Shown: piece after piece, positions 7,103 through 31,000 of the stretch
Layout of the letters: every line of letters starts with the position of its first letter
Position numbering within the stretch: the first letter of the stretch is position 1
Assembly: GCA_027062625.1 (NCBI GenBank)
Contig: JAMOSZ010000053.1
Coordinates: forward strand, 1 to 32,941
Source of the DNA: Nautiliaceae bacterium
GTDB taxonomy: Bacteria; Campylobacterota; Campylobacteria; Campylobacterales; Nautiliaceae
Reading direction: 5' to 3'
DNA: 32,941 bases
Notes under the pieces: generated by a model
Database searches by the model: none
The model's input: only the letters and a program-made list of their open reading frames with translations
What the model was told of the DNA's origin: nothing
Translations under genes and position numbers: made by a program

Positions 7103-7926
7103 AAGTAGCAGTAGTTGGGGTTGGTGGAGTTGGGGGGTATTTGGCTTATAAATTGATTAAGTGTGGAGTGGATGTGGATATTTTAGCTACAAAAAAGACA
7201 AATGAAGTGATAAAAAAAGAGGGGCTAAAAGTTATTGATGTTGATAAAGAAGAAGTTGTCTTTCCAAAAGTTGGGCTTAGAGGGGTTTATGATGTAATTT
7301 TTGTTACTACAAAGTCATATCATCTTGATGAGGTTTTAAAAGAAATTAAAGGGCATTACAATAAAAACACGCGTATAGTGCCGATTTTAAACGGGGTTGA
7401 GCATTTTGAGAAGTTTAAAAACTTAGATGCCAAGATTGTAAAAGCGTGTATTTATATACTCTCAAATAAGATAAAAATTAATATAATTCATAAAAAGACG
7501 CCACTTTTTTATCTTTGTGTAGAAGATGATGAAGTTTTAAGGAAAATTTTTGAGGGTTGTGATTTAAAAGTAAAGTTTAGTAAAGAAATAAAGAGAGATA
7601 TTTGGAAAAAGTATCTTTTTATTGCAACATTTGCTACTTTGCAAAGTTATTATCAAAAGCCAACTGGTTGGATTATGGAGAAAAAAAGGGATGAGGTTGA
7701 GAGGTTTTTGGATGAAGTTTTAAGGATTGCAAAAGAGGAGGGGGTTGATTTAGAGGGTGAGAAGGCAAAGGTTATAAAACAGGCTTTGAATATTCCTTAT
7801 GAGAGTAAAATGAGTATGCAAATTGATTTTGAGAAAAATTCAAAAACTGAGGTTGATAATATTACCGGATATTTGGCAAAGAGGAGTAAGTTAATAGAGA
7901 AATATTATAAAAGGTTTATAGAATGA
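7099..7926 (+). CDS. panE: Ketopantoate reductase family protein (ApbA/PanE)
   Basis: PanE reduces 2-dehydropantoate to pantoate with NADPH, on the path to CoA. The N-terminal Rossmann loop GVGGVGGYLAYKL (about residues 7-19) is clear, followed by VIFVTTKSYHLDEVL and the NGVEH segment typical of the family. The C-terminal helical domain carries a KKYLFIATFAT stretch and a late SSM-type segment (ESKMSMQIDFEK), as in ketopantoate reductases. The length of 275 residues is slightly short. True PanE activity is likely but unproven, since other reductases share this fold. It is coupled by ATGA on both sides. Confidence 0.8.
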   Translation: MKVAVVGVGGVGGYLAYKLIKCGVDVDILATKKTNEVIKKEGLKVIDVDKEEVVFPKVGLRGVYDVIFVTTKSYHLDEVLKEIKGHYNKNTRIVPILNGVEHFEKFKNLDAKIVKACIYILSNKIKINIIHKKTPLFYLCVEDDEVLRKIFEGCDLKVKFSKEIKRDIWKKYLFIATFATLQSYYQKPTGWIMEKKRDEVERFLDEVLRIAKEEGVDLEGEKAKVIKQALNIPYESKMSMQIDFEKNSKTEVDNITGYLAKRSKLIEKYYKRFIE

Positions 7927-9275
7927 GAAGAGATTATCTTTTTATAACCATTTTTTTTACTTTAACTCTTTTTTTTGGAGGAATTTATGCTCTTATGAAC
8001 TATAAAAAAGATTTAGCGATTAAAGAGGCATATAAGAGTTATTATAGGGAAAATAAGTCTTTGTTTGAAAATGAAAATAGGCTTTTAAATTTTCAAGCAA
8101 GAATTCTTTATGATTTGATAGTTGATGGGACTTTGAAGTGGTATATTTCTCAGTTTGCACTTGATAATAATAATAGTTCAATTTATAAGGATTTAATTGA
8201 AGGTAGGGTTAGAAAGTTTTCTAAGGTGTTGAAAAAATATAATGTTTTATATCTTCATATAATGTTAAAAAGTAAATCGATTTATGAGATGAATAAAGTG
8301 GTTTTTAAAAACGATTATAAATTTGGATTTTATTCAAAGCCTTATAGTACTTTCGTTATTACTCAAAAAGGGGTTGGGTATTTGGTCTCTTATCCTATAA
8401 AAGATAGGAAAAATAATTTAATTGGAAATTTTGCGATTGTTTTTGATTATTTAAAAGTTATGAAGATGTTTTTTAAGGAGAATATTTATATTGCTCTTTT
8501 TAAAAAGTATGGAGAAAAACTTAATTTTTGTAAATTGAATAATGATTTTTATCTCTCAGGAGATTTTTGTAAAAAGTATGGGTTTAAAAATCTTTTCTTT
8601 TTACCCGGAGTTGTAAAGTATCAAGATTATGTTGTTATTGCAATTCCTATTTATGAAATTTCAGATAAGATAGGGTATGTGGTAAAGGTTGAAAAAGAGT
8701 ATAAATTTGAAGAGATTTATAAGATTCATGAGCATTTTGAAAAGATGACTATTATTTTATTTGTTTTTTATGTTGTCTCTTTGATAATTGTTTTTGGAAT
8801 TGTTCATTTTTTAGATGTTTATAAGAAAGCCTCAGTTGATAGATTAACAAATCTTTTAAATAGACAAGGATGTGCAAAAAAATTAAAAACTATTAGCAAT
8901 TACTCTTTATTAGTTATTGATATTGACTATTTTAAAAAAGTTAATGACACTTATGGGCACGATATTGGTGATGAGGTTTTAAAAGAAGTGGCAAATATTC
9001 TTAAAAATTCTCTTAGGAAAAGTGATATTATTTGTAGGTGGGGAGGAGAAGAGTTTATTGTTATTTTGCCGAATACTTCTCTTGAAATGGCTTATGAGAT
9101 AGGGGAGAGATTAAGGAAAAATATTGAAAACTGCAAAAACTTTCCTTATGATTTAAAGGTTACGATTTCCGTTGGAGTTGCAAGTAGTAAGGGTGATTTT
9201 CAGCAGACTTTTAAGAGTGCTGATGAAAATTTATATTTGGCAAAAAAGAGTGGAAGAAATAGGGTTATTTTTTAG
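7923..9275 (+). CDS. Membrane diguanylate cyclase with periplasmic sensor region
   Basis: GGDEF proteins make cyclic di-GMP from two GTP. This 450-residue protein has an N-terminal membrane helix (about 5-25), a periplasmic segment of about 245 residues that may be a Cache-like sensor, a second helix (about 274-297), and a GGDEF domain from about residue 305. The signature is GGEEF (about 373-377), so it should be catalytically active. An RxxD product-inhibition site (RKSD) lies five residues before it. No EAL domain is present. The signal sensed is unknown. Its 3' end overlaps that of ruvX on the other strand by 11 bases. Confidence 0.9.
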   Translation: MRRDYLFITIFFTLTLFFGGIYALMNYKKDLAIKEAYKSYYRENKSLFENENRLLNFQARILYDLIVDGTLKWYISQFALDNNNSSIYKDLIEGRVRKFSKVLKKYNVLYLHIMLKSKSIYEMNKVVFKNDYKFGFYSKPYSTFVITQKGVGYLVSYPIKDRKNNLIGNFAIVFDYLKVMKMFFKENIYIALFKKYGEKLNFCKLNNDFYLSGDFCKKYGFKNLFFLPGVVKYQDYVVIAIPIYEISDKIGYVVKVEKEYKFEEIYKIHEHFEKMTIILFVFYVVSLIIVFGIVHFLDVYKKASVDRLTNLLNRQGCAKKLKTISNYSLLVIDIDYFKKVNDTYGHDIGDEVLKEVANILKNSLRKSDIICRWGGEEFIVILPNTSLEMAYEIGERLRKNIENCKNFPYDLKVTISVGVASSKGDFQQTFKSADENLYLAKKSGRNRVIF

Positions 9276-9648
9276 CAAGATAACTTTCAAGAATTTTTTT
9301 TGCAGCTAAGCTATCAATTCTCCCATCTCTTTTTTGTTTTATTTTTCCTTTTATCTCTTCTTTTACGATTGCACTAGTAAAACTTTCATCTACAAATTCA
9401 ACTTTTCCCTCAAACTCAATTAAATTTGCAAAATGTTTTATTCTCTGGCTCATCTCTTCATTTGTTTTTGGAAGCCCAATTACAAGGGTGTTGGCTTTGT
9501 ATTCTTTTAAAAGTTCACTCACTTCTTTTGCCGCTTGGTTTCTGTTTTTACGGATTATTGCCCTAAGCGGCACTACTGCAATTCCACCCGGGCTATAAGC
9601 TACTCCAATTCTTTTAAGTCCTACATCTATTGCAACAATTTTTTCCAT
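9265..9648 (-). CDS. ruvX: Holliday junction resolvase-like protein / pre-16S rRNA nuclease (YqgF)
   Basis: RuvX/YqgF is an RNase H-fold nuclease linked to 16S rRNA 5' maturation and, by homology, to recombination junctions. The N-terminal AIDVGLKRIGVAYS has the first acidic residue (Asp8). The LVIGLPKT motif, FVDESFTS (Glu88) and a C-terminal Asp112 in RIDSLAAKK complete the expected active site. The length of 127 residues is normal. It overlaps the DNA glycosylase gene by 22 bases and is the last gene of the minus-strand block. In Helicobacter it lies next to dprA. Confidence 0.92.
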   Translation of the reverse strand: MEKIVAIDVGLKRIGVAYSPGGIAVVPLRAIIRKNRNQAAKEVSELLKEYKANTLVIGLPKTNEEMSQRIKHFANLIEFEGKVEFVDESFTSAIVKEEIKGKIKQKRDGRIDSLAAKKILESYLAKK

Positions 9649-11668: not shown

Positions 11669-11898
11669 TTTTCTAAAATGATTTCAACTTCTAATGTTTC
11701 AATCTCTTGATTTGATGAGGTTTTAATTACTACATCTTTTACTTTTATATACTTTTTTACTACTTCTATTAACTCTTTTTTCATTTCATCTAAATTTTCT
11801 ATATGAGTATTTGCTCTCTCATATGCAAGCATCATCATAAGTCTATCTTTTGCTACTTCTTTTGATTTTTTTTTCTTGAAAATATTAAAAAAACTCAT
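11665..11898 (-). CDS. minE: Cell division topological specificity factor MinE
   Basis: MinE stimulates MinD ATP hydrolysis and drives pole-to-pole oscillation of the division inhibitor. The 77-residue product shows the typical order: a basic N-terminal membrane-binding part, then [15 protein letters not shown], the MinD-binding helix, and a C-terminal beta-rich dimerisation part ending LEVEIILEK. It is coupled by ATGA to both minD and the deacetylase-family gene. MinC is not encoded in the window. Confidence 0.93.
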
Positions 11899-12701
11899 TT
11901 AAAAAGCCTTTTTAGTTTACTAAATAATCCTTTTTTCTTATTAAAATCCAAAAACTCAACCTCTTCTCCTAAAATTCTTCTTGCAACTCTTCTAAAAGCC
12001 TCTCCCACAAGAGATTTTTCGTTTAAAACAATAGGCTCTCCTAAGTTTGTAGATTTTATAATATCTTCATCATCGGGTATTACTCCAATTAAAGGTAAGG
12101 CTAAAATGTGTAAGACATCATCAATTGAAAGCATCTCTTCTTTTTCAACGAGTTCTGGTTTTATTCTATTTATAATAATCTCTTTTTTAACTTCTTTTCC
12201 CTCTTTTGCTTTTTTGCTTTTTGCATCAATTATTCCAATTACTCTATCTGCATCTCTTACCGCACTAATTTCAGGAGTTGTTACAATTAAAGCTCTATCT
12301 GCAAGGTAGATTGAGTGTTCAAACCCACTCTCAATTCCAGCAGGTGAGTCAATTAAGATATAATCAAAATCTTTTTTTAGTTCATTTATTAGTTTTTCAA
12401 CTTTATCTTTATCTAAAACGCTTTTATCTTTGGTTTGGCTTGCTGGTAGGAAATGGAGGTTTTTGGTTCTTTTATCTTTTATAATTGCTTGGGCTAGGTT
12501 GCATCTTCCCTCCATTACATCTACAACATCATAAACTATTCTATTTTCAAGTCCAAGTATCATATCAAGGTTTCTAAGTCCAATATCAAAATCAACCGCA
12601 ACTACTTTTTTACCAAGCATAGCAAGTGCTGTTGCTATATTTGCTGTTGTTGTTGATTTTCCAACCCCGCCTTTTCCACTTGTAATTGTAATAACTTCCA
12701 C
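11895..12701 (-). CDS. minD: Septum site-determining ATPase MinD
   Basis: MinD is a membrane-cycling ATPase that recruits MinC. The deviant Walker A motif KGGVGKST is at about residues 10-17. [26 protein letters not shown] and the NRIKPELV segment are typical. The C-terminus ends in an amphipathic membrane-targeting helix ([11 protein letters not shown]). The start is GTG at 12701 with AAGGG five bases upstream, and a promoter lies immediately before it. The length of 268 residues is normal. Synteny ilvC...minD-minE...dprA-ruvX matches other Campylobacterota. Confidence 0.96.
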
Positions 12702-12719: not shown

Positions 12720-12728
12720 ATTATATCA
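12720..12728 (-). promoter_or_regulatory. Extended -10 promoter for minD
   Basis: The minus strand reads TG-A-TATAAT here. It lies 18 bases before the GTG start of minD, so the leader would be only about 10-12 bases with an AAGGG site inside. The TGA of the element is also the stop codon of the preceding gene. No -35 box is visible. Confidence 0.55.
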
Positions 12729-14099
12729 TTTTCCTTGATTAAATCTATCCATAATGGTTAAATTGTCTTTTGCGAATGGAATATTTGATTTTTCAAAATA
12801 TTCTCTTGCTTTTTTATAGTTTTTCTTAGTTCCTTTACCAATATAGTAAAAAACTCCAAGATTGTAATAATCACTTGGAAAATTGCTTTTTTTAAAGTAT
12901 TTTATAGCAATTTTTGGGATGTAATATTTAGATGGAGTTGCATAAAGCACTCCTAAATTGTGTGCAATTATTGGGTTTGGATTTTGTTTATAAGCTTCTT
13001 TTAGATAATTTAAAGCTTTATCAACTTCTCCTCTCTCAAAGAAGTATTTTCCAATATCGTTTAGAGTTTTATATCCTCCAAATTGAGCAATTTCACTCTC
13101 ACTTGGAATTTTATCTTGGCTAAGAAGGTAGGTTGTGTAATTTTGGAAGTAGCTTTTATTGTTAAAGCACTCTTTTTTTATGTTGTTTGGATTGAAAATG
13201 CAGTTATTTAGGTTTGTTGTATAAAGTTTTTGGATTAATTTATCAATTTTTGGGGATATTTCTCCAAAAATTCTCTCAGGTTTAAAGATAATTCCTCCGC
13301 TTAGTTTTTCTGATAAGAGAAGTTGAAGGTTTTGCAAAGAATTTATTATGTTTTGTTTTAGGAATGTTATATTTGAATCATTTTTATTAAATTCAGCCCC
13401 AAAGCTTTTCATATATAAAAGTCTTCTTATATGGAAAAAGATTTTTGGCTCTTTTTTGGTGATTTTTTTAGTTTTTTTAACTTTTATTGAGGTTGTAACT
13501 TGTAAGAATTTTTTTATGTAATTTTTCGAGTTAGGGTAGTGTTTTTTAATGTAATAATCAACTGCGTCTTTATTTAAAACTAGATAAAACGAATAGAGGA
13601 TATATTTTAGTTTGTTGTTATTTAAAGGTACTTTTTGAAAGTAGATATACTTATTTAGTTTTAGTGATTTTTTGATTGGAATATTATAAGCTTCAATTGA
13701 GAGGTAAGTAAATTTATTATAAGGTATTGCATATCCATTTAATAAATAATTAAGTTGCTTATAGCCTCTTTTATAGTCGGTTAAATAATATTCTAGATTG
13801 GTTGGAGAGGCTGAATAGAGGAGTTTATATGGATATTTCATAAATAAGTTTCCATTAATAAATCCGATTGAATTGTATCTTAGAACTTTTAAACTAAATT
13901 CTTTGGTAAAAATAGGAATAAAAAATTTAAATCCTTCAATATCAAAATAACTAATAGGAGATTGATTTTTAAGGGTTAGTTTATAAGTGTGTTTTGTTGT
14001 CGTAATGTCAAAATTTTCAGGTGATAGGTCATATAAACTTACATATGCAAAAAGAAAGAGGGGAAAGAAAAGGCTACTTAGTTGGAATATAATGCGCAT
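12726..14099 (-). CDS. Exported protein with C-terminal TPR/Sel1-like repeats, unknown function
   Basis: I do not recognise this 457-residue protein as a named family. A hydrophobic N-terminus (about 3-18) looks like a signal peptide. The middle (about 20-340) is rich in Tyr, Asn and Lys and has no motif I know. From about residue 345 to the end there are TPR or Sel1-like helical repeats (ALNYLKEAYKQNP, AHNLGVLYA, YYNLGVFYYIGKG, AREYFEKS), which normally bind other proteins. It starts 26 bases inside the preceding secreted-protein gene and has no clear ribosome site, which suggests translational coupling and a joint function with that protein. Confidence 0.7.
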   Translation of the reverse strand: MRIIFQLSSLFFPLFLFAYVSLYDLSPENFDITTTKHTYKLTLKNQSPISYFDIEGFKFFIPIFTKEFSLKVLRYNSIGFINGNLFMKYPYKLLYSASPTNLEYYLTDYKRGYKQLNYLLNGYAIPYNKFTYLSIEAYNIPIKKSLKLNKYIYFQKVPLNNNKLKYILYSFYLVLNKDAVDYYIKKHYPNSKNYIKKFLQVTTSIKVKKTKKITKKEPKIFFHIRRLLYMKSFGAEFNKNDSNITFLKQNIINSLQNLQLLLSEKLSGGIIFKPERIFGEISPKIDKLIQKLYTTNLNNCIFNPNNIKKECFNNKSYFQNYTTYLLSQDKIPSESEIAQFGGYKTLNDIGKYFFERGEVDKALNYLKEAYKQNPNPIIAHNLGVLYATPSKYYIPKIAIKYFKKSNFPSDYYNLGVFYYIGKGTKKNYKKAREYFEKSNIPFAKDNLTIMDRFNQGK

Positions 14100-15216
14100 T
14101 TGTAATTTTATTATTTGTAATCATAAAGAAAGTTGGAATAAATGATGCGTGTTTTCCAGGTCCAAATTGAACATCAGTTACGTTTGTAATATCTTTGATT
14201 TGGATTTGTCCCTCTTTGAATAGTTTTGGATTTGAAGTTTTTGAGATTAAATCAGCAACTGAAATAATTGCTACTTCGTTTTTCATATAGTTAGATTTAT
14301 TAATTTTTGGTGCTGGTGAGAAGATTACAACTTCTTTTTTCACATCTTTATTTTCTTTTGTATCTCTAACTTCTATTTCAAATTTTCTAATTTGGTCGTG
14401 ATTGTATCCAAATGGGAAATCAAATGCTATAAATTGGTTTTTTCCATAGTTTGAGTAAGTAAATGTAGTAGTTTTGTGTTGTAAAATTTTTAGGATTTGA
14501 GTTGTCTTTTCTCTTCCAAGTAAAATATAAGGATTGGTATCATTTCCGTATGCAACTACTTGTCCAGTTAAAGTTTTGCTATGAGCATTTTTAAATGCTG
14601 TCATTGGAAGAATTGATGTAGGTGTTGGATCATTTTTGTCTACATATTCAACATTTCCAGCTAAGTCGTTATATACTCTTTTTAATGTATTGCTTGGATA
14701 TTTTCCTTTAATTAAAGAATCCCATCTATTAACTAATATACTTTTTGCTACTTTTGCATCACTTCTTTCGTTAAATTCAGCAATTGGATAAACTTCAATA
14801 TATCCAGTTGAGAAGTCTACATCAGTATGTCCAGATTTTACACTATAAGAAGTAATATCAACCCCTTTTGCAAGCATTGCTTTTGCTTGTGGATGGTTTG
14901 AGTCGTCACTCGAATAAAGATAAACATCGCTTCCTTGTTGGCATAGTTTTCCAGTCCATACATCTCCTGGGCTTAGGAAAATAGGAATATCAACTTCATT
15001 TGAGTATGTTTGTTCTCTAAATGCAACTTTTGCTAAAATTGATCTAGTTGTATTTGTATTATAAACTGTAACTTTTGTACACACATTACCTTTTGCTACG
15101 TATAATGGAGCGATTAAAAAATCACCTCTTCCATCAGTTGATTTTACAACATTTGATGCAAGTGCCATTGAAGCTGCTAAACTTACCCCAATTAATGCAG
15201 ATGTTACTTTTTTCAT
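14074..15216 (-). CDS. Secreted protein of unknown function
   Basis: This 380-residue protein has a clear Sec signal peptide (MKKVTSALIGVSLAASMALA, cleavage after about residue 20). The mature N-terminus has a beta-sandwich look: APLYVAKGNVCTKVTVYNTNT, then LAKVAFREQTYSNEVDIPIFL and SPGDVWTGKLC, with Cys46 and Cys92 placed for a disulfide. I recall uncharacterised exported proteins with a similar LSPxDVWT pattern but no function for them. It has its own likely promoter and an AAGGAG ribosome site, and is coupled to the TPR protein downstream. An envelope or surface role is inference. Confidence 0.7.
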   Translation of the reverse strand: MKKVTSALIGVSLAASMALASNVVKSTDGRGDFLIAPLYVAKGNVCTKVTVYNTNTTRSILAKVAFREQTYSNEVDIPIFLSPGDVWTGKLCQQGSDVYLYSSDDSNHPQAKAMLAKGVDITSYSVKSGHTDVDFSTGYIEVYPIAEFNERSDAKVAKSILVNRWDSLIKGKYPSNTLKRVYNDLAGNVEYVDKNDPTPTSILPMTAFKNAHSKTLTGQVVAYGNDTNPYILLGREKTTQILKILQHKTTTFTYSNYGKNQFIAFDFPFGYNHDQIRKFEIEVRDTKENKDVKKEVVIFSPAPKINKSNYMKNEVAIISVADLISKTSNPKLFKEGQIQIKDITNVTDVQFGPGKHASFIPTFFMITNNKITNAHYIPTK

Positions 15217-15250: not shown

Positions 15251-16344
<1,094 letters not shown>

Positions 16345-16361: not shown

Positions 16362-16895
16362 ATGAGAGTTTTTTTATCTTTATTGGTTGTATCTTATCTT
16401 TTTGCTTTAAATCCAAGCAAGATGAATTTAATTGAGCTTTATAAAAGACATTATTACACTTATATTTGTGTTCATAGATGGAAGTTTATAAAAAAGTATA
16501 AAGATGAAGATTTACTCTCATTAGTAGCTGCTTCTTGTGTAAAAAAACATATGGTAACTCCTGGGATTGATGTTGCAAAGGTTTTGCGTTTTACAAAAAT
16601 TGGACGCAATAATGCAAATTATCTCTCAACTCTCTTTTTGATTAAACATTATATAATAAGTTACATTAAGGATGGATTTGATTTAAAAAATGTTAATTTA
16701 CCATTGATTAAAGATGATTTAATAGGTAAAATTTTTATATTACTTAAAGCTCAAAAGCCAAAAGTAAAAGATAACTCTTTTGTAGTGGTAGATGGTAGTT
16801 TGAAGTATAAAGTTGTAGTAAATTTAAAAAGAAATTTACTTTATGTCTACATTTTAAATAACGGAAATTTAATTAAAAAGGATAGATATTGGTAA
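16362..16895 (+). CDS. Exported protein of unknown function leading the gspE-gspF operon
   Basis: I do not recognise this 177-residue protein. A short signal peptide (about residues 1-16, ending LFALNP) is followed by a helical, basic, Tyr-rich region with Cys36 and Cys59, and a C-terminal beta-like part (FVVVDGSLKYKVVVNL). The gene has its own promoter and overlaps the TTG start of the ATPase gene by 7 bases, so the two are likely co-translated. The position suggests a periplasmic or secretin-side accessory factor for the pilus or DNA-uptake machine. That is inference from context only. Confidence 0.75.
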   Translation: MRVFLSLLVVSYLFALNPSKMNLIELYKRHYYTYICVHRWKFIKKYKDEDLLSLVAASCVKKHMVTPGIDVAKVLRFTKIGRNNANYLSTLFLIKHYIISYIKDGFDLKNVNLPLIKDDLIGKIFILLKAQKPKVKDNSFVVVDGSLKYKVVVNLKRNLLYVYILNNGNLIKKDRYW

Positions 16896-18529
16896 CGCCA
16901 GAACAACTCATAAAACTTGGGCTTATTACAAAAGAGCAAGCAAAAGAGGCACTTGAAAAGAAAAAACAAAATCCAAATAAGAGTTTTTTGGATATTTTAT
17001 ATGAGCTTGGATACATCTCAAAAGAGGAGTATTTAAAAATCCTTGCTTTTGATTTAAAAGTCCCTTATGTTACAGAGCTTAAAAATGTAAGGTTAAGGGA
17101 TATAAAAGTTCCAGCAAATATTTTAAAGCAATTTAGGGCAATTCCATTTGAGATTAAGTATAACAAAGTAAAAATTGCCCTAGTAAATCCTCTTGATTAC
17201 AATGCAAGAAATTACTTTCAAAGAATTTATAGAAACGCTCAAATTGAATTTTACTTAGCTCACGAAGAGGATATTAACAAAGTTTTACAGCTTATAGAAA
17301 ATAGACAACAAATCCAGCAAATTATCTCCGATATTAAAAAAGAGTTAAGAGGAGAGGCTATTACTGGTGAAGAGTCAGCTATTATGCGGCTGATTGATTT
17401 TATTTTAAGGGGTGCTATTAAGAAAAAAGCAAGCGATATTCACATTGAAGCGGATGAAGATGGTGCATTAATTAGGATTAGGATTTTTGGTACTTTGTAT
17501 GAATTTTTGGATTTAGAGAGTGAAATTTTTAATGCAATTTCTTCAAGAATTAAGCTTGAAGCTGGCATGGATGTAAGTGAGAAAAGAAAGCCCCAAGATG
17601 GTGCTTTTTCAAGAGAGATTGATGGAAATCATTTTGATTTTAGGGTATCAACTCTACCAACGGTTTGGGGAGAGAGTATAGTTATTAGGATTTTGGATAA
17701 AAGAAATATTACAAAAAGTCTTGATGAGAGTGGAATTTCTCCTAAGAATTTGGAGCTTTTAAAAAAGGCTATCTCTTATCCAAACGGGATTTTCCTTGTA
17801 ACGGGTCCAACAGGTTCTGGTAAATCTACAACTTTGTATGCGACAATTAACGAAGTTACAGGAGTTGATAAAAAGGTAATTACTGTTGAAGACCCCGTTG
17901 AGTATAAGTTAAGAGGAATTCAGCAAGTAAGTGTTAATGAAAGAGCAGGGCTTACTTTTGCAAGTGCGCTAAAAGCAATCTTGCGTCAAGACCCAGATAT
18001 TATTATGATTGGTGAGATTAGGGATATGGAGACTCTTGAAATTGCAATTAAAGCAGCTTTGACTGGGCACTTAGTGTTATCAACTTTACATACAAACGAT
18101 GCGGTTGGAGCAGTTAGTAGGATGATTGATATGGGAGCTGAGCCGTTTATGGTTGGGGCGGCTTTGGTTGGAGTTGAAGCTCAAAGACTTGTAAAAACGA
18201 TTTGTCCACATTGTAAAGCAGAACATAAACCCCCAGAAGCTTTTTTAGAGCCAATTAGGTCAATTTTGCCAAAAGATGCAAAATTTTATATGGGAAGAGG
18301 TTGTGAGAAGTGTAATATGACAGGATATGCAGGAAGAACTCCAATTACTGAAATTTTTATTAAAGATGATAAACTTGAAGCTATGATTGCTAAAAATAAA
18401 GATAAAGTAGAGCTTATGGAGTATTTAAAAAATGAAAAAGGTTTTAAGCCTATGTTTTATGATGGACTTTTAAAGGCTTTAAAAGGAATTACTACCTTAG
18501 AGGAAGTTTATAAGGTAGCAAGACCATGA
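16889..18529 (+). CDS. Type II secretion / type IV pilus assembly ATPase (GspE/PilB family)
   Basis: This hexameric cytoplasmic ATPase powers pilin or pseudopilin polymerisation. The N-terminus (about 1-120) is an MshEN-type domain with repeated LIKLGLITKEQ-like helices. The nucleotide-binding half has Walker A GPTGSGKST at 306-314, an Asp box (VITVEDPVEY), Walker B near 368-379 (DPDIIMIGEIRD) and the zinc tetracysteine CPHC (439-442) and CEKC (472-475) that marks assembly rather than retraction ATPases. At 546 residues it is full length. It starts with TTG at 16889 behind AAGGAT. In Campylobacter the equivalent is the competence gene ctsE. Confidence 0.92.
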   Translation: MVTPEQLIKLGLITKEQAKEALEKKKQNPNKSFLDILYELGYISKEEYLKILAFDLKVPYVTELKNVRLRDIKVPANILKQFRAIPFEIKYNKVKIALVNPLDYNARNYFQRIYRNAQIEFYLAHEEDINKVLQLIENRQQIQQIISDIKKELRGEAITGEESAIMRLIDFILRGAIKKKASDIHIEADEDGALIRIRIFGTLYEFLDLESEIFNAISSRIKLEAGMDVSEKRKPQDGAFSREIDGNHFDFRVSTLPTVWGESIVIRILDKRNITKSLDESGISPKNLELLKKAISYPNGIFLVTGPTGSGKSTTLYATINEVTGVDKKVITVEDPVEYKLRGIQQVSVNERAGLTFASALKAILRQDPDIIMIGEIRDMETLEIAIKAALTGHLVLSTLHTNDAVGAVSRMIDMGAEPFMVGAALVGVEAQRLVKTICPHCKAEHKPPEAFLEPIRSILPKDAKFYMGRGCEKCNMTGYAGRTPITEIFIKDDKLEAMIAKNKDKVELMEYLKNEKGFKPMFYDGLLKALKGITTLEEVYKVARP

Positions 18530-19779
18530 GTGCTACTAAATATTTTAAAATCACTTATGTTTATAAGGGTAAAACTTTTTCTAAAATTATTAATGCTACC
18601 AATAAAGCAGAAGCAATTAGCGAGGCAAAAAAAGTTGTGAAGGGGCTTGTTGTTAAAGTTCAAGAAGTCCCTATGCCTTTTGAAGAGAAGTTAAAACTTG
18701 CAAAAGATTGGATTCAAAATAAAATTTTTAGAAAAAAGATGAAGTATCCAGCTTATATTGCCGCATTAAATCAGCTTGCGGTTATGATAAAAGCTGGTAT
18801 CTCTTTAAAAGATGCGCTTGAAGATATTGGAAAACACTCAGAAGATGAGCTTGTAAAAGAGCTTTTTTTGCACGCGGCTGAGGCTATTGATACTGGTAAA
18901 TCTTTAACGGATGCTTTTAAAGATTATGAGCAGTATGTTGGTGGGCTTAGTGTTGCTATGATTAGGCTTGGTGAGCAGACTGGGGATTTGGTAATGGCAA
19001 TTGAATCTTTGGCAAGAATTTATGATAATATCTATCAAAACAGAAGAAAAATGGTAAAAGCCCTTAGATATCCAATTATTACTTTAATTGCAATTGCCGT
19101 TGCGTTTGTGTTTTTGATTATGTTGGTTGTTCCAAAGTTTAAAGCTATGTTTGAACAACTTCACGCAGAATTACCACTTCCAACTCAAATTTTGTTATTT
19201 TTAGAATATCTTTTTTCCCATTATGGTCCAATTGTATTGCTTGTAGTTATTTTAACTGCAATGACTATAAATTTAGCTTATAAAATCTCCCCAAAATTTA
19301 AGTATAAGATGGATGCTTTAATGTTAAAAACTTATCTTATTAATAAGATTATTTTGTATGCTACTTTGCATAGATTTTTGCTTATCTTATCATCTTTGCT
19401 AAAATCTGGTATTCCCCTTTTGGATGCATTAAAAATTAGTGAAGGGATTATTGAAAATGAAGTTATAAAATCAAAAGTAAGAGAAATTATAAGAGGGATT
19501 AATCAAGGTAGGAATATGGCTGAGGTTATGGAAGAAGTGGAGCTTGTGGACTTTATTGCGCTGAGGATGATTAGTGCAGGGGAGGAATCAGGAGAACTTG
19601 ATACTATGTTAAGTAGTGCGGCTAAATATTATGAAGAAAAATTCCAAGATGTTATTGAGAATATGCAAGCGGCAATTGAGCCTATTATGTTAACTGTGAT
19701 TGGTGGGCTTGTATTGTTAATTGCACTTGGTATCTTCTTGCCAATGTGGGATTTGGCAAACGCAGCAAAAAACGCGTAA
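18526..19779 (+). CDS. Type II secretion / type IV pilus inner-membrane platform protein (GspF/PilC family)
   Basis: GspF/PilC is the membrane platform rotated by the assembly ATPase. The 417 residues hold two homologous T2SSF domains (about 80-200 and 280-400), each starting with a helical LNQLAVMIKAGISLKDALEDI or LHRFLLILSSLLKSGIPLLDAL pattern, with membrane helices after each and a hydrophobic C-terminus (PIMLTVIGGLVLLIALGIFLPMW). It starts in an ATGA overlap with the ATPase gene. Its stop codon directly abuts that of the convergent atpZ-like gene with no base between. The Campylobacter equivalent is ctsF. Confidence 0.92.
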   Translation: MSATKYFKITYVYKGKTFSKIINATNKAEAISEAKKVVKGLVVKVQEVPMPFEEKLKLAKDWIQNKIFRKKMKYPAYIAALNQLAVMIKAGISLKDALEDIGKHSEDELVKELFLHAAEAIDTGKSLTDAFKDYEQYVGGLSVAMIRLGEQTGDLVMAIESLARIYDNIYQNRRKMVKALRYPIITLIAIAVAFVFLIMLVVPKFKAMFEQLHAELPLPTQILLFLEYLFSHYGPIVLLVVILTAMTINLAYKISPKFKYKMDALMLKTYLINKIILYATLHRFLLILSSLLKSGIPLLDALKISEGIIENEVIKSKVREIIRGINQGRNMAEVMEEVELVDFIALRMISAGEESGELDTMLSSAAKYYEEKFQDVIENMQAAIEPIMLTVIGGLVLLIALGIFLPMWDLANAAKNA

Positions 19780-29268: not shown

Positions 29269-29471
29269 AAAAAGTGACAATTTCTGTAATGGGAGAGAAG
29301 TTTGAAATAGAACTTGAAGATGAGTTTTTTGAGTTTGTTAAGGATGATTTGGCAAAAGTCCAAAAAATGACTCCAAAGGAGCTTTTGGTTTTTGTATTGG
29401 AAAAAAATAAAAGAGAGTTTGAATTAACAAAAAGAGTTGAAAAAATTCTTAGCATATTGGAGAGAGAATGA
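29265..29471 (+). CDS. Small protein with ZapA-like N-terminus, unknown function
   Basis: The 68-residue product begins KKVTISVMGEKFEIELEDE, a beta hairpin similar to the start of ZapA (which bundles FtsZ), followed by a helical part (KELLVFVLEKNKREFELTKR). It lacks the long C-terminal helix of full ZapA proteins, so the call is tentative. It is joined by ATGA overlaps to the coiled-coil gene before it and to the first prepilin after it. All three are therefore probably translated together. Confidence 0.65.
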   Translation: MKKVTISVMGEKFEIELEDEFFEFVKDDLAKVQKMTPKELLVFVLEKNKREFELTKRVEKILSILERE

Positions 29472-29920
29472 AAAAAGCTTTTACTATGATAGAGCTGATT
29501 TTTGTAATTGTTATTTTAGGAATTTTAGCGGCTGTGGCGATTCCAAGGTATTTTGCAGTAGGTCAGCATGCACACGAGAGTATATTAATCTCTTTTGTAA
29601 GAACTTTAAACAGAACAACGGGAGAAGATTTGTGGGGTAAGAGTATGAGTGAGGGTAAAAAGGGAGATATTACTCATTTAGCTCCTGTTGAGGATGCTAA
29701 ATTTCTTAGCAAATATATCCAAATTCCAAAAGAGATTAATGCAAGTAGTATTGATTTAACAAAGTGTGGAAATGGAGAATATAAAACGGTTATGGTAGCT
29801 AACTCAAAAGTTGCTGGGGGAGAATATAATATTACTTGCAAAAACGGAACAAGTGTTAGTGCGCCGTATTTTAGACTTATTAGAATAAAAGATAATAAAA
29901 TTTTGGTAACAAGGGATTAA
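29468..29920 (+). CDS. Prepilin-like protein A
   Basis: This 150-residue protein has a class III (type IV pilin) leader: MKKA then [22 protein letters not shown], with cleavage after Ala4 and Glu at +5. The hydrophobic assembly helix spans about 5-28. The C-terminal domain has Cys residues in LTKCGNG and ITCKNG that can close a disulfide loop, as in pilins. It is a close paralogue of the next gene (shared leader, a QAHE/QHAHE segment, the TLNRT and PKEI motifs). It should be processed by the prepilin peptidase at 2041-2778. Confidence 0.88.
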   Translation: MKKAFTMIELIFVIVILGILAAVAIPRYFAVGQHAHESILISFVRTLNRTTGEDLWGKSMSEGKKGDITHLAPVEDAKFLSKYIQIPKEINASSIDLTKCGNGEYKTVMVANSKVAGGEYNITCKNGTSVSAPYFRLIRIKDNKILVTRD

Positions 29921-29952
29921 ATTAAAAAAACATTAAAAAAATATTAAAAATC
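29921..29952 (+). repeat. Three phased 11-base A-tract repeats upstream of a promoter
   Basis: ATTAAAAAAAC (29921-29931), ATTAAAAAAAT (29932-29942) and ATTAAAAATCT (29943-29953) are direct repeats with a period of 11 bases, close to one helical turn. They end exactly at the -35 box of the next promoter. Phased A-tracts bend DNA, and A/T-rich sequence here can act as an UP element for the RNA polymerase alpha subunit. The effect is inferred. Confidence 0.65.
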
Positions 29953-29981
29953 TTGACTTAAAATAGTTTTATTGATATAAT
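29953..29981 (+). promoter_or_regulatory. Strong promoter for prepilin B
   Basis: TTGACT (29953-29958), a 17-base spacer and TATAAT (29976-29981), with TGA in front of the -10. It is among the best sigma-70-type promoters in the window. Transcription would start about 20 bases before the ATG at 30011, and an AAAGGAG ribosome site follows. It separates expression of prepilin B from the genes upstream. Confidence 0.75.
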
Positions 29982-30010
29982 TTTAATAACTTTAAACAAA
30001 AGGAGTCGTA

Positions 30011-30550
30011 ATGAAAAAAGCGTTTACTATGATTGAACTTATTTTCGTTATTGTTATTTTAGGTATTTTAGCAGCAGTTGCGTTACCAAAATTTATGGGT
30101 GTTGCAAAACAAGCACATGAAGGTAACTTAAAAAGTTTTGTTGGAACTTTAAATAGGACAGTTGGGCCTACTTTATGGAGTCAATCTATCGCAGAAGGTA
30201 AAAATGGAGATATCTCTTACCTGGATTTAGAGGATCAAAATGGAAGTGGAAACTTAACTAAATATGTTGATGTTCCAAAAGAGATTAAAAGAATGGACCT
30301 TGGTAAGTGTGATTCAGCTACTCAATGGAAAATTGTTGGGTATGCAGATCAAGGAGTAGCTGGTGCTAATTACTTTATTGCATGTATTGATGGTAATGCA
30401 AATCAATCACCAAAATTTGCACTATTTAACCAACTTAAACCATCAACTGAGTTAACTGATAGCAACTTAGGTGATGCAAATGATACTCAAATTACTGATA
30501 ATCCAGCTAAATTTGGTAGTGATGCAGAAGAAGGTACTCTTATTAAATAA
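30011..30550 (+). CDS. Prepilin-like protein B, probable major (pseudo)pilin
   Basis: This 179-residue protein has the same leader and assembly helix as prepilin A (cleavage after Ala4, Glu at +5). The globular part shares the FVGTLNRT and VPKEI segments and two Cys (LGKCDS, IACIDG). It differs by a C-terminal extension of about 35 residues rich in Asp, Asn and Thr (about 145-179). Because it alone has a strong promoter with upstream A-tracts and AAAGGAG, it is the best candidate for the major subunit. Whether it builds a surface pilus or a short pseudopilus for DNA uptake cannot be told from sequence. Confidence 0.9.
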   Translation: MKKAFTMIELIFVIVILGILAAVALPKFMGVAKQAHEGNLKSFVGTLNRTVGPTLWSQSIAEGKNGDISYLDLEDQNGSGNLTKYVDVPKEIKRMDLGKCDSATQWKIVGYADQGVAGANYFIACIDGNANQSPKFALFNQLKPSTELTDSNLGDANDTQITDNPAKFGSDAEEGTLIK

Positions 30551-30559
30551 GGTTTATAG

Positions 30560-31000
30560 TTGAGACTTTCTTTTACTTTAATTGAACTTATTTTTGTAAT
30601 AGTTGTTATTGGAATTTTAGCGGGGGTAGCTCTTCCTCGCTTATTTCCTACAATTGACGAAGCTAAAATAACGAAGGCAAAAACTCAAATTGCTTCAATA
30701 AAGAGTGGCATATCTTCTAAATTCTCTCAAAATATTATGGCTGGTGAAAGTGATATTTGTCCAGAGCTTGAAAAATCTACAAGTGATGGTTATTTGTTTG
30801 AGAATGTATTATCCACTCCTATTAAAGAGAATAGTGGAGAAGTTAAGTGGGTTTTAGATAATAATGATTCTACTGATACAAATTATACTTTAACAATTGG
30901 TGATAAAAGTGCAAAATTTATTTATGAAAAAAATGCTACAAAAAATTGCCCGTTTATTTGTCAAGGGGATGCTGATTTTTGTCAACAATTAACTCGATGA
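30560..31000 (+). CDS. Prepilin-like protein C (minor pseudopilin)
   Basis: The 146-residue product has the leader MRLS followed by [22 protein letters not shown]. The residue before the cleavage site is Ser, not the usual Gly or Ala. The C-terminal part is unlike prepilins A and B and has four Cys (one in DICPELE, three in [14 protein letters not shown]). The start is TTG at 30560 with TAAGG at good spacing, nine bases after prepilin B, so it is probably read from the same transcript at a lower level. It ends in an ATGA overlap with priA. Confidence 0.85.

Follow-up and report, generated by a model that had tools for sequence, protein, structure and literature searches.

In a 32,941-nucleotide stretch of DNA from a vent bacterium of the Nautiliaceae, here called the window (NCBI GenBank assembly GCA_027062625.1, contig JAMOSZ010000053.1, positions 1 to 32,941), two hypothetical genes, P1 and P2, are located between ilvC and minD. 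The pair looks like the smallest version of a wider module that probably builds a surface coat and is related to NpdA, the surface layer (S-layer) protein of Delftia and Paracidovorax. The N-terminal domain (N-domain) of P1 is shared by a Delftia protein presumed to be NpdA, the N-domain of P2 was found only beside P1 (6/6 matching genomes among 398), and relatives of P1 are encoded amid genes for a type II secretion system (T2SS), a peptidyl-prolyl isomerase (PPIase), a lipoprotein and glycan modification. An earlier note on this DNA had proposed a small export or surface-assembly module; these neighbourhoods lend support to that idea, and P1 proved not to be an orphan.

A probable relation of P1 to NpdA

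As described in parts of PMC3110197 and PMC10765051, NpdA is an S-layer/nanopod protein of ca. 61 kDa, its gene lies behind 12 gsp genes, and npdA is carried by many Beta- and Gammaproteobacteria. When P1 was compared with the open reading frames (ORFs) of preselected loci, a Delftia protein (L089) was matched by phmmer at 9.7e-11. A profile made from alignment A3, which contains short members only, including P1 and short Burkholderiales members, matched proteins of Delftia, Acidovorax and Simplicispira at 1.6e-27 to 3.9e-23. In the genome of Delftia acidovorans the P1 relative is the sole family match; it has a mass of 58.7 kDa, a secretin and a lipoprotein are encoded ahead of it, and a PPIase after it. 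Of the npdA carriers listed in PMC10765051, Comamonas odontotermitis has a plasmid-borne P1 relative behind a gsp cluster, and a P1 relative is also present in Simplicispira metamorpha. From taxon, size and neighbourhood, the long Burkholderiales relatives of P1 are likely NpdA.

In a tree of 39 selected N-domain rows, with group labels assigned by the author, the 11 NpdA-like rows formed one clade (100/100) without P1, and the seven pair-bearing rows together with L061 formed a separate clade (91/98). Judged by sequence, P1 and the NpdA-like proteins are thus one family on different branches. The neighbourhood of the family resembles that of npdA in holding a lipoprotein, a PPIase and a T2SS. 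The window P1 differs from NpdA in that neither a T2SS cluster nor a lipoprotein or PPIase is encoded next to it, and in having a cysteine pair and P2 as partner, whereas a PPIase gene comes after the NpdA-like genes.

A scan of named genomes yielded 36 loci with P1 relatives, chiefly in Campylobacterota and Betaproteobacteria, and further contigs were labelled Persephonella, Saprospiraceae, Gammaproteobacteria and uncultured bacterium. The proteins on the contigs labelled Persephonella and Saprospiraceae (L064, L065) group with Campylobacterota P1 proteins, which may reflect transfer or mis-binning. Some DNA carries two locus numbers (L043/L062, L050/L070, L071/L146, L074/L145).

The conserved part of P1 is the N-domain, with 32-68% identity between the window P1 and its relatives over residues 26-151; for the C-terminal part, identity was 41-63% to members of the close clade, compared with 15-28% to all other relatives (truncated L070 excluded). 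Across 20 sequences of alignment A3, 17 columns were invariant. No family above cut-off was found for P1 in Pfam, NCBIfam or PHROGs, and neither the 20 family members run against Pfam nor the 3 run against NCBIfam gave a match. An assignment to Surface_Ag_2 (PF01617) was rejected (16.7 bits versus a cut-off of 22; 1/20 members at E 0.1). The earlier note had described P1 as a secreted protein with a possible disulfide. By eye, P1 has a signal-peptide-like start, and both C46 and C92 are retained in 8/8 close P1 proteins; C46 is missing in the 14 remaining sequences of alignment A3.

Fold of the P1 N-domain

The structure model of P1 was good (predicted local distance difference test, pLDDT, 82.6; predicted template modelling score, pTM, 0.83). 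Its N-domain is modelled as a beta-sandwich, for which the best match was TM1070 (1nc7; Z 8.5, root-mean-square deviation 3.1, 108/116 residues), with the qualification that models lacking clear relatives often reach a best Z of 7-8. Next came a streptococcal minor pilin (5.3) and galectins (~5). A sequence search of the PDB with P1 gave one chance-level match (E 0.33). The family of TM1070 (ASRT/ASRAH), whose fold is an eight-stranded beta-sandwich, is predicted, in the part of PMC2739507 consulted, to bind sugars. As in that family, an invariant asparagine (Asn53) is found at the end of the second predicted strand of P1; as a difference, the H/C ligand motif was not seen in P1 by eye. The S-layer protein of D. 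acidovorans is reported to require lipopolysaccharide for assembly (Engelhardt, cited in part of PMC3110197), a dependence that would suit an N-domain gripping a glycan.

These folds could also belong to an exoprotein or adhesin that binds sugars, in soluble form or attached to the cell, and that is released through a T2SS without forming a coat, with P2 as its anchor at the outer membrane; some P1 relatives indeed adjoin PMT, GtrA, glycosyltransferase, PIG-L or ABC-exporter genes. This explanation is considered unlikely, as NpdA, the likely characterised relative, makes a coat according to parts of PMC3110197 and PMC10765051, and the lipoprotein and PPIase neighbours common to Burkholderiales and Campylobacterota members point to one system.

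P2 and its partner family

The earlier note had described P2 as an exported TPR/Sel1-like protein. P2 starts with a signal-peptide-like sequence (by eye), and residues ~340-455 matched Sel1 (PF08238) with 32.5 bits versus a cut-off of 30.7. In Pfam, NCBIfam and PHROGs, P2 matched TPR/Sel1, with only Sel1 above the Pfam cut-off; apart from this, there were just two NCBIfam matches below cut-off and an unknown PHROG on the same tail. Sequence and structural matches alike liken this tail to HcpC (1ouv) and LpnE (6deh), from which P2 differs by a distinct N-domain that was seen nowhere but next to P1. TPR matches dominated the structural alignment of P2, by which the fold of its N-domain was barely tested.

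Using hhalign, the P2 N-domain was linked to partner proteins encoded beside P1 relatives with a probability of 95.7 (L062) and 67.8 (L064/L074). Profile iteration starting from the betaproteobacterial partners collected 19/1507 ORFs, 18 of which are the first ORF behind a P1 relative; the 19th (L080) overlaps the end of one. This iteration reached the partner at L043 (3e-4), which is also matched by the P2 N-domain profile (3.9e-11), and it was the only iteration that joined the P2 N-domain to most partner proteins. The N-domain is the pair-defining part of P2, and the TPR/Sel1 tail was apparently added in the window's clade.

Co-occurrence of P1 and P2

In genomes of the order, the P1 family profile matched 19/398 and the P2 N-domain profile 6/398 (drawn in the same way), with P1 adjacent in 6/6 (hypergeometric 5e-9, relatedness of the genomes ignored). 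One of the six P2 genomes (G004, L043/L062) has the more distant, shorter partner of 339 aa, in which no Sel1 tail was seen by eye. The earlier note had suggested checking whether the two proteins always co-occur, independent occurrence in most genomes speaking against a module. Such independence was observed for P1, which occurs without a P2 N-domain match in 13 of its 19 genomes, and not for P2; a more distant partner lies directly behind P1 in many loci. A single-sequence search found P1 in 8/149 genomes, and P2 matches elsewhere fell on the TPR/Sel1 part, the widest among the matches listed starting at residue 293. When the class was searched with a profile, 5/298 genomes were matched.

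Seven pair loci were obtained, in Nautiliaceae (3), a Sulfurimonas metagenome-assembled genome (L059), Poseidonibacter lekithochrous (L060) and family f9 (L143, L144). Both genes are encoded at all six loci other than the window (L057, L058, L059, L060, L143, L144), so P1 and P2 are genuine genes and not chance ORFs. The loci represent several genomic contexts, with flanking genes shared by L143 and L060. The TPR/Sel1 tail is visible in six of the seven P2 proteins (the end of P2 at L143 was not inspected).

P1 and P2 overlap at 4/7 pair loci. As in the window, the P2 start codon (ATG) lies within the end of P1 in L057 (26 bases), L058 (35) and L059 (17) with identical frame relation; for these three, P2 starts were picked by eye and the mechanical ORF starts sit further upstream. 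At L143 the two ORFs are separated by 5 bases, and at L060 and L144 they are parted by a small ORF of ~50 aa that resembles a lipoprotein and ends similarly at the two loci (by eye). This overlap and the adjacent co-occurrence in 6/6 genomes make it very improbable that P1 and P2 are unrelated neighbours inserted by chance, a possibility already disfavoured, to which the patchiness of the family (19/398) and the presence of P1 without P2 at L061 would otherwise lend some weight. A viral origin of the pair was not supported either, as none of 185 pattern matches in viral contigs was confirmed.

Layout and insertion site

The two ORFs between ilvC and minD and their 26-base overlap were found as the earlier note had described them (Table 1).

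Table 1. Coordinates of the P1-P2 pair and flanking features in the window
Feature	Position	Strand	Remarks
P1	14074..15216	-	380 aa; exported beta-sandwich protein of NpdA-related family (predicted); N-domain ~26-195, variable C-terminal part; Cys46/Cys92
P2	12726..14099	-	457 aa; predicted exported partner; N-domain ~20-205 (found only beside P1), variable linker, TPR/Sel1 repeats ~340-455
P1 end/P2 start overlap	14074..14099	-	26 bases, read from the sequence; putative translational coupling
Shine-Dalgarno-like AAGGAG of P1	15222..15227	-	read from the sequence; good match
Hairpin across ilvC stop codon, then T-rich stretch	15266..15297	-	fold z -2.29
ilvC	15277..16299	-	upstream flank of insertion site
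minD	11895..12701	-	downstream flank of insertion site
GspE/PilB-like ATPase and GspF/PilC-like protein	16889..19779	+	divergent from ilvC

IlvC was found in 19/21 Nautiliaceae genomes, and 19 ilvC loci were read after exclusion of a second, partial IlvC match in one genome (L112). minD directly follows ilvC in 15 of them, with 34-91 bases between the matches; P1-P2 is located between the two genes in three (the window, G357 = L057 and G358 = L058), and one ends with the contig. The pair is patchy in Nautiliaceae, gained or lost at one site.

The promoter that the earlier note had assigned to the pair could not be recovered: the 60-base gap that separates P1 from ilvC contained no minus-strand promoter-like site, the closest one being at 15419-15392 within ilvC, and the region contained fewer such sites (19) than shuffled sequences (mean 24.2). 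The hairpin thought to separate the pair from ilvC does fold, modestly (4/200 shuffles were equally good); it overlaps the ilvC stop codon and was missing from the terminator-scan output. Stem-loops at the matching place also fold in L057 and L058 (no shuffle control).

Neighbourhoods of P1 relatives

For neighbourhood counts, identical P1 ORFs and those of <120 aa (L073) were dropped, leaving 52. Near copies were kept (e.g., L078-L081, L087/L088, L072/L076), which inflates the matches, and many contigs are cut, so that misses are partly missing DNA. A small unnamed lipoprotein of one family was encoded within 1.5 kb of 28/52 P1 ORFs, a PPIase within 2.5 kb of 27/52, a secretin within 12 kb of 14/52 and GspE near 14/52. 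Neighbours on the opposite strand were rare for the lipoprotein (1/28) and PPIase (1/27), with 2/14 for the secretin and 4/14 for gspE. A partner gene was found right behind 26/52 P1 ORFs (19 P2-like and 8 P2, L043 counted in both). In Pfam, the PPIC PPIase (L146, L086), the secretin (L146, L086, L045), T2SSE and the N-methylation motif (L146), PMT, GtrA and glycosyltransferase (L145), an ABC exporter (L086), and PIG-L with glycosyltransferases (L078) were confirmed. No Pfam family was found for the lipoprotein in four members scanned; its lipobox cysteine was invariant in 13/13 aligned sequences. At L146, the partner of a P1 relative (7678-9627, minus strand) bears five MopE-type metal-binding stretches.

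P1 relatives are also located on plasmids, in three Nitratiruptor records and one Comamonas record. The 35.3-kb Nitratiruptor plasmid pNitYY0826_PLS (NZ_AP023064, L151 1-35300) carries gspD, gspE, gspG and a gene of the gspF type, and it encodes a PMT-type transferase and an S8 peptidase. A row consisting of PPIase, hypothetical (lipoprotein), P1 and hypothetical (partner) is present on it twice. It resembles the window genome in that P1 homologs are followed by partner proteins and its T2SS is collinear with a cluster on contig C11 of that genome (GspE 57%, GspF 43%, GspD 42% and GspC-like 34% identity); it differs in having the full row with PPIase and lipoprotein, in two copies, together with T2SS and PMT-type gene on one plasmid. 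Five isolates, with one plasmid each, are described in PMC9723563, the paper on these strains, in whose main text, as far as consulted, the word 'secretion' is absent.

Possible secretion route and proposed reduced variant

Two T2SS-like clusters were identified on other contigs of the window genome (C3 and C11; gene order by eye). Four secretin matches were present, one with an internal stop (the partial match L159, G000:C36:14394-14636, with an in-frame TAA). A strong match to the C11-type GspD (<1e-100) was found in 10/21 Nautiliaceae genomes. A T2SS route is thus available in the window genome, but its association with the pair is not specific.

None of the family-type lipoprotein, PPIase or secretin was encoded near P1 in 8/8 members of the window's clade (L059 on a 5.9-kb contig). 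The lipoprotein family was not found anywhere in 5/5 pair-bearing genomes searched, two of which are 63% and 70% complete; PPIase genes elsewhere in these genomes were not searched for. The same search recovered the lipoprotein in 3/3 positive controls, and in two pair-free Nautiliaceae it gave one marginal match (1.1e-4) and none, respectively. The best reading is that the clade represents a reduced variant, without neighbouring lipoprotein and PPIase and with a TPR/Sel1 tail on P2. The same absences would be expected if the pair stayed inside the envelope, with P1 periplasmic or associated with the outer membrane and P2 as a periplasmic TPR scaffold, and no secretion step. Given the T2SS linkage of P1 relatives elsewhere, this explanation is regarded as improbable.

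Assessment of a coat function

Several results weigh against the assignment of P1 and P2 to a surface coat. The Burkholderiales proteins are presumed to be NpdA from taxon, size and neighbourhood; P1 (380 aa, versus 504-649 aa for NpdA-like proteins) falls outside their clade, which sits on a long branch. The resemblance to TM1070 is modest (Foldseek E 0.086, probability 0.77), the ASRT Pfam profile was not matched by any of 20 P1 members at E 0.1, and the strand-1 tryptophan of that family was not seen in P1 (by eye). On the side of P2, hhalign gave probabilities of 4.0, 0.4 and 0.4 against the partner groups camp, beta and beta2, iteration from P2 itself halted at eight sequences, and the link to most partners is transitive, with direct matches to L043/L062 and, weakly, L064. 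The P2 model is poor (pLDDT 65.6) and weak outside the TPR/Sel1 tail, and L061 (Arcobacteraceae) has P1 but no P2. No dedicated T2SS lies beside the pair; only gspE and gspF are nearby, and both are common to Nautiliaceae. gspE adjoins ilvC in 19/19 loci with or without the pair, and was therefore dropped as a mark of the pair's secretion system. C11-type GspD was found in 2/3 pair genomes and 8/18 pair-free genomes, and not in pair-bearing G357 (63% complete). Identity between P1 of the window and P1 of L057 and L058 is 63% and 60%, compared with 94-96% for IlvC; GspE at this locus is as divergent across Nautiliaceae (47-66%), so that the fast divergence of P1 is no proof of surface exposure.

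With these points included, the chances are regarded as even that P1-P2 is a two-gene surface-coat cassette, in which P1 is an S-layer-like coat protein exported by a T2SS and P2 its coupled assembly partner. After export by Sec, P1 would adopt a beta-sandwich fold in the periplasm, in this clade probably stapled by a disulfide between C46 and C92. It would then leave the cell through the T2SS and assemble at the surface into an S-layer-like coat, with the conserved N-domain probably gripping a surface glycan. As its start codon lies inside the end of P1, P2 would be made in step with P1. Its N-domain would correspond to the partner proteins that other bacteria encode next to P1 relatives. During export or anchoring, the TPR/Sel1 tail may bind a protein, be it P1 or part of the secretion machinery, and it perhaps substitutes for the lipoprotein and PPIase encoded near P1 relatives elsewhere.

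A more far-reaching proposal is made tentatively and held to be rather doubtful. Across Campylobacterota and Betaproteobacteria there may be an undescribed coat module, consisting of a coat protein, with an N-domain that is of the NpdA type and grips sugar, and an exported partner dedicated to it. In many cases the module would include a PPIase, a lipoprotein and a T2SS of its own, and in some it would be plasmid-borne. The window would contain its minimal form, in which two co-translated proteins suffice and the P2 tail replaces the missing lipoprotein and neighbouring PPIase.

By these results, an unannotated gene pair of Nautiliaceae is tied to the little-studied NpdA surface-layer proteins. 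In the part of PMC10765051 consulted, mutational analysis of the npdA-linked T2SS is named as future work; the conserved set of lipoprotein, PPIase and partner protein provides candidates for roles in surface-layer secretion, and the two-gene version should make it easier to tell which parts are essential. In the library searched, no paper was found that joins S-layer with Nautiliaceae, NpdA and surface layer protein with Campylobacterota, or T2SS and protein O-mannosyltransferase with Campylobacterota, the older name Epsilonproteobacteria not being covered by these searches; that name is absent from the main text of PMC10765051. Likewise, no paper was found on a cluster of T2SS, PIG-L and PPIase.

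Other genes of the window

Between ilvC and gspE, a 177-aa protein without a match in Pfam or NCBIfam is encoded at 16362-16895 (plus strand), and it was present in 18/19 Nautiliaceae ilvC loci. Further along the window, at 29468-31000 (plus strand), three consecutive pseudopilin-like genes were observed, each weakly matching the plasmid GspG.

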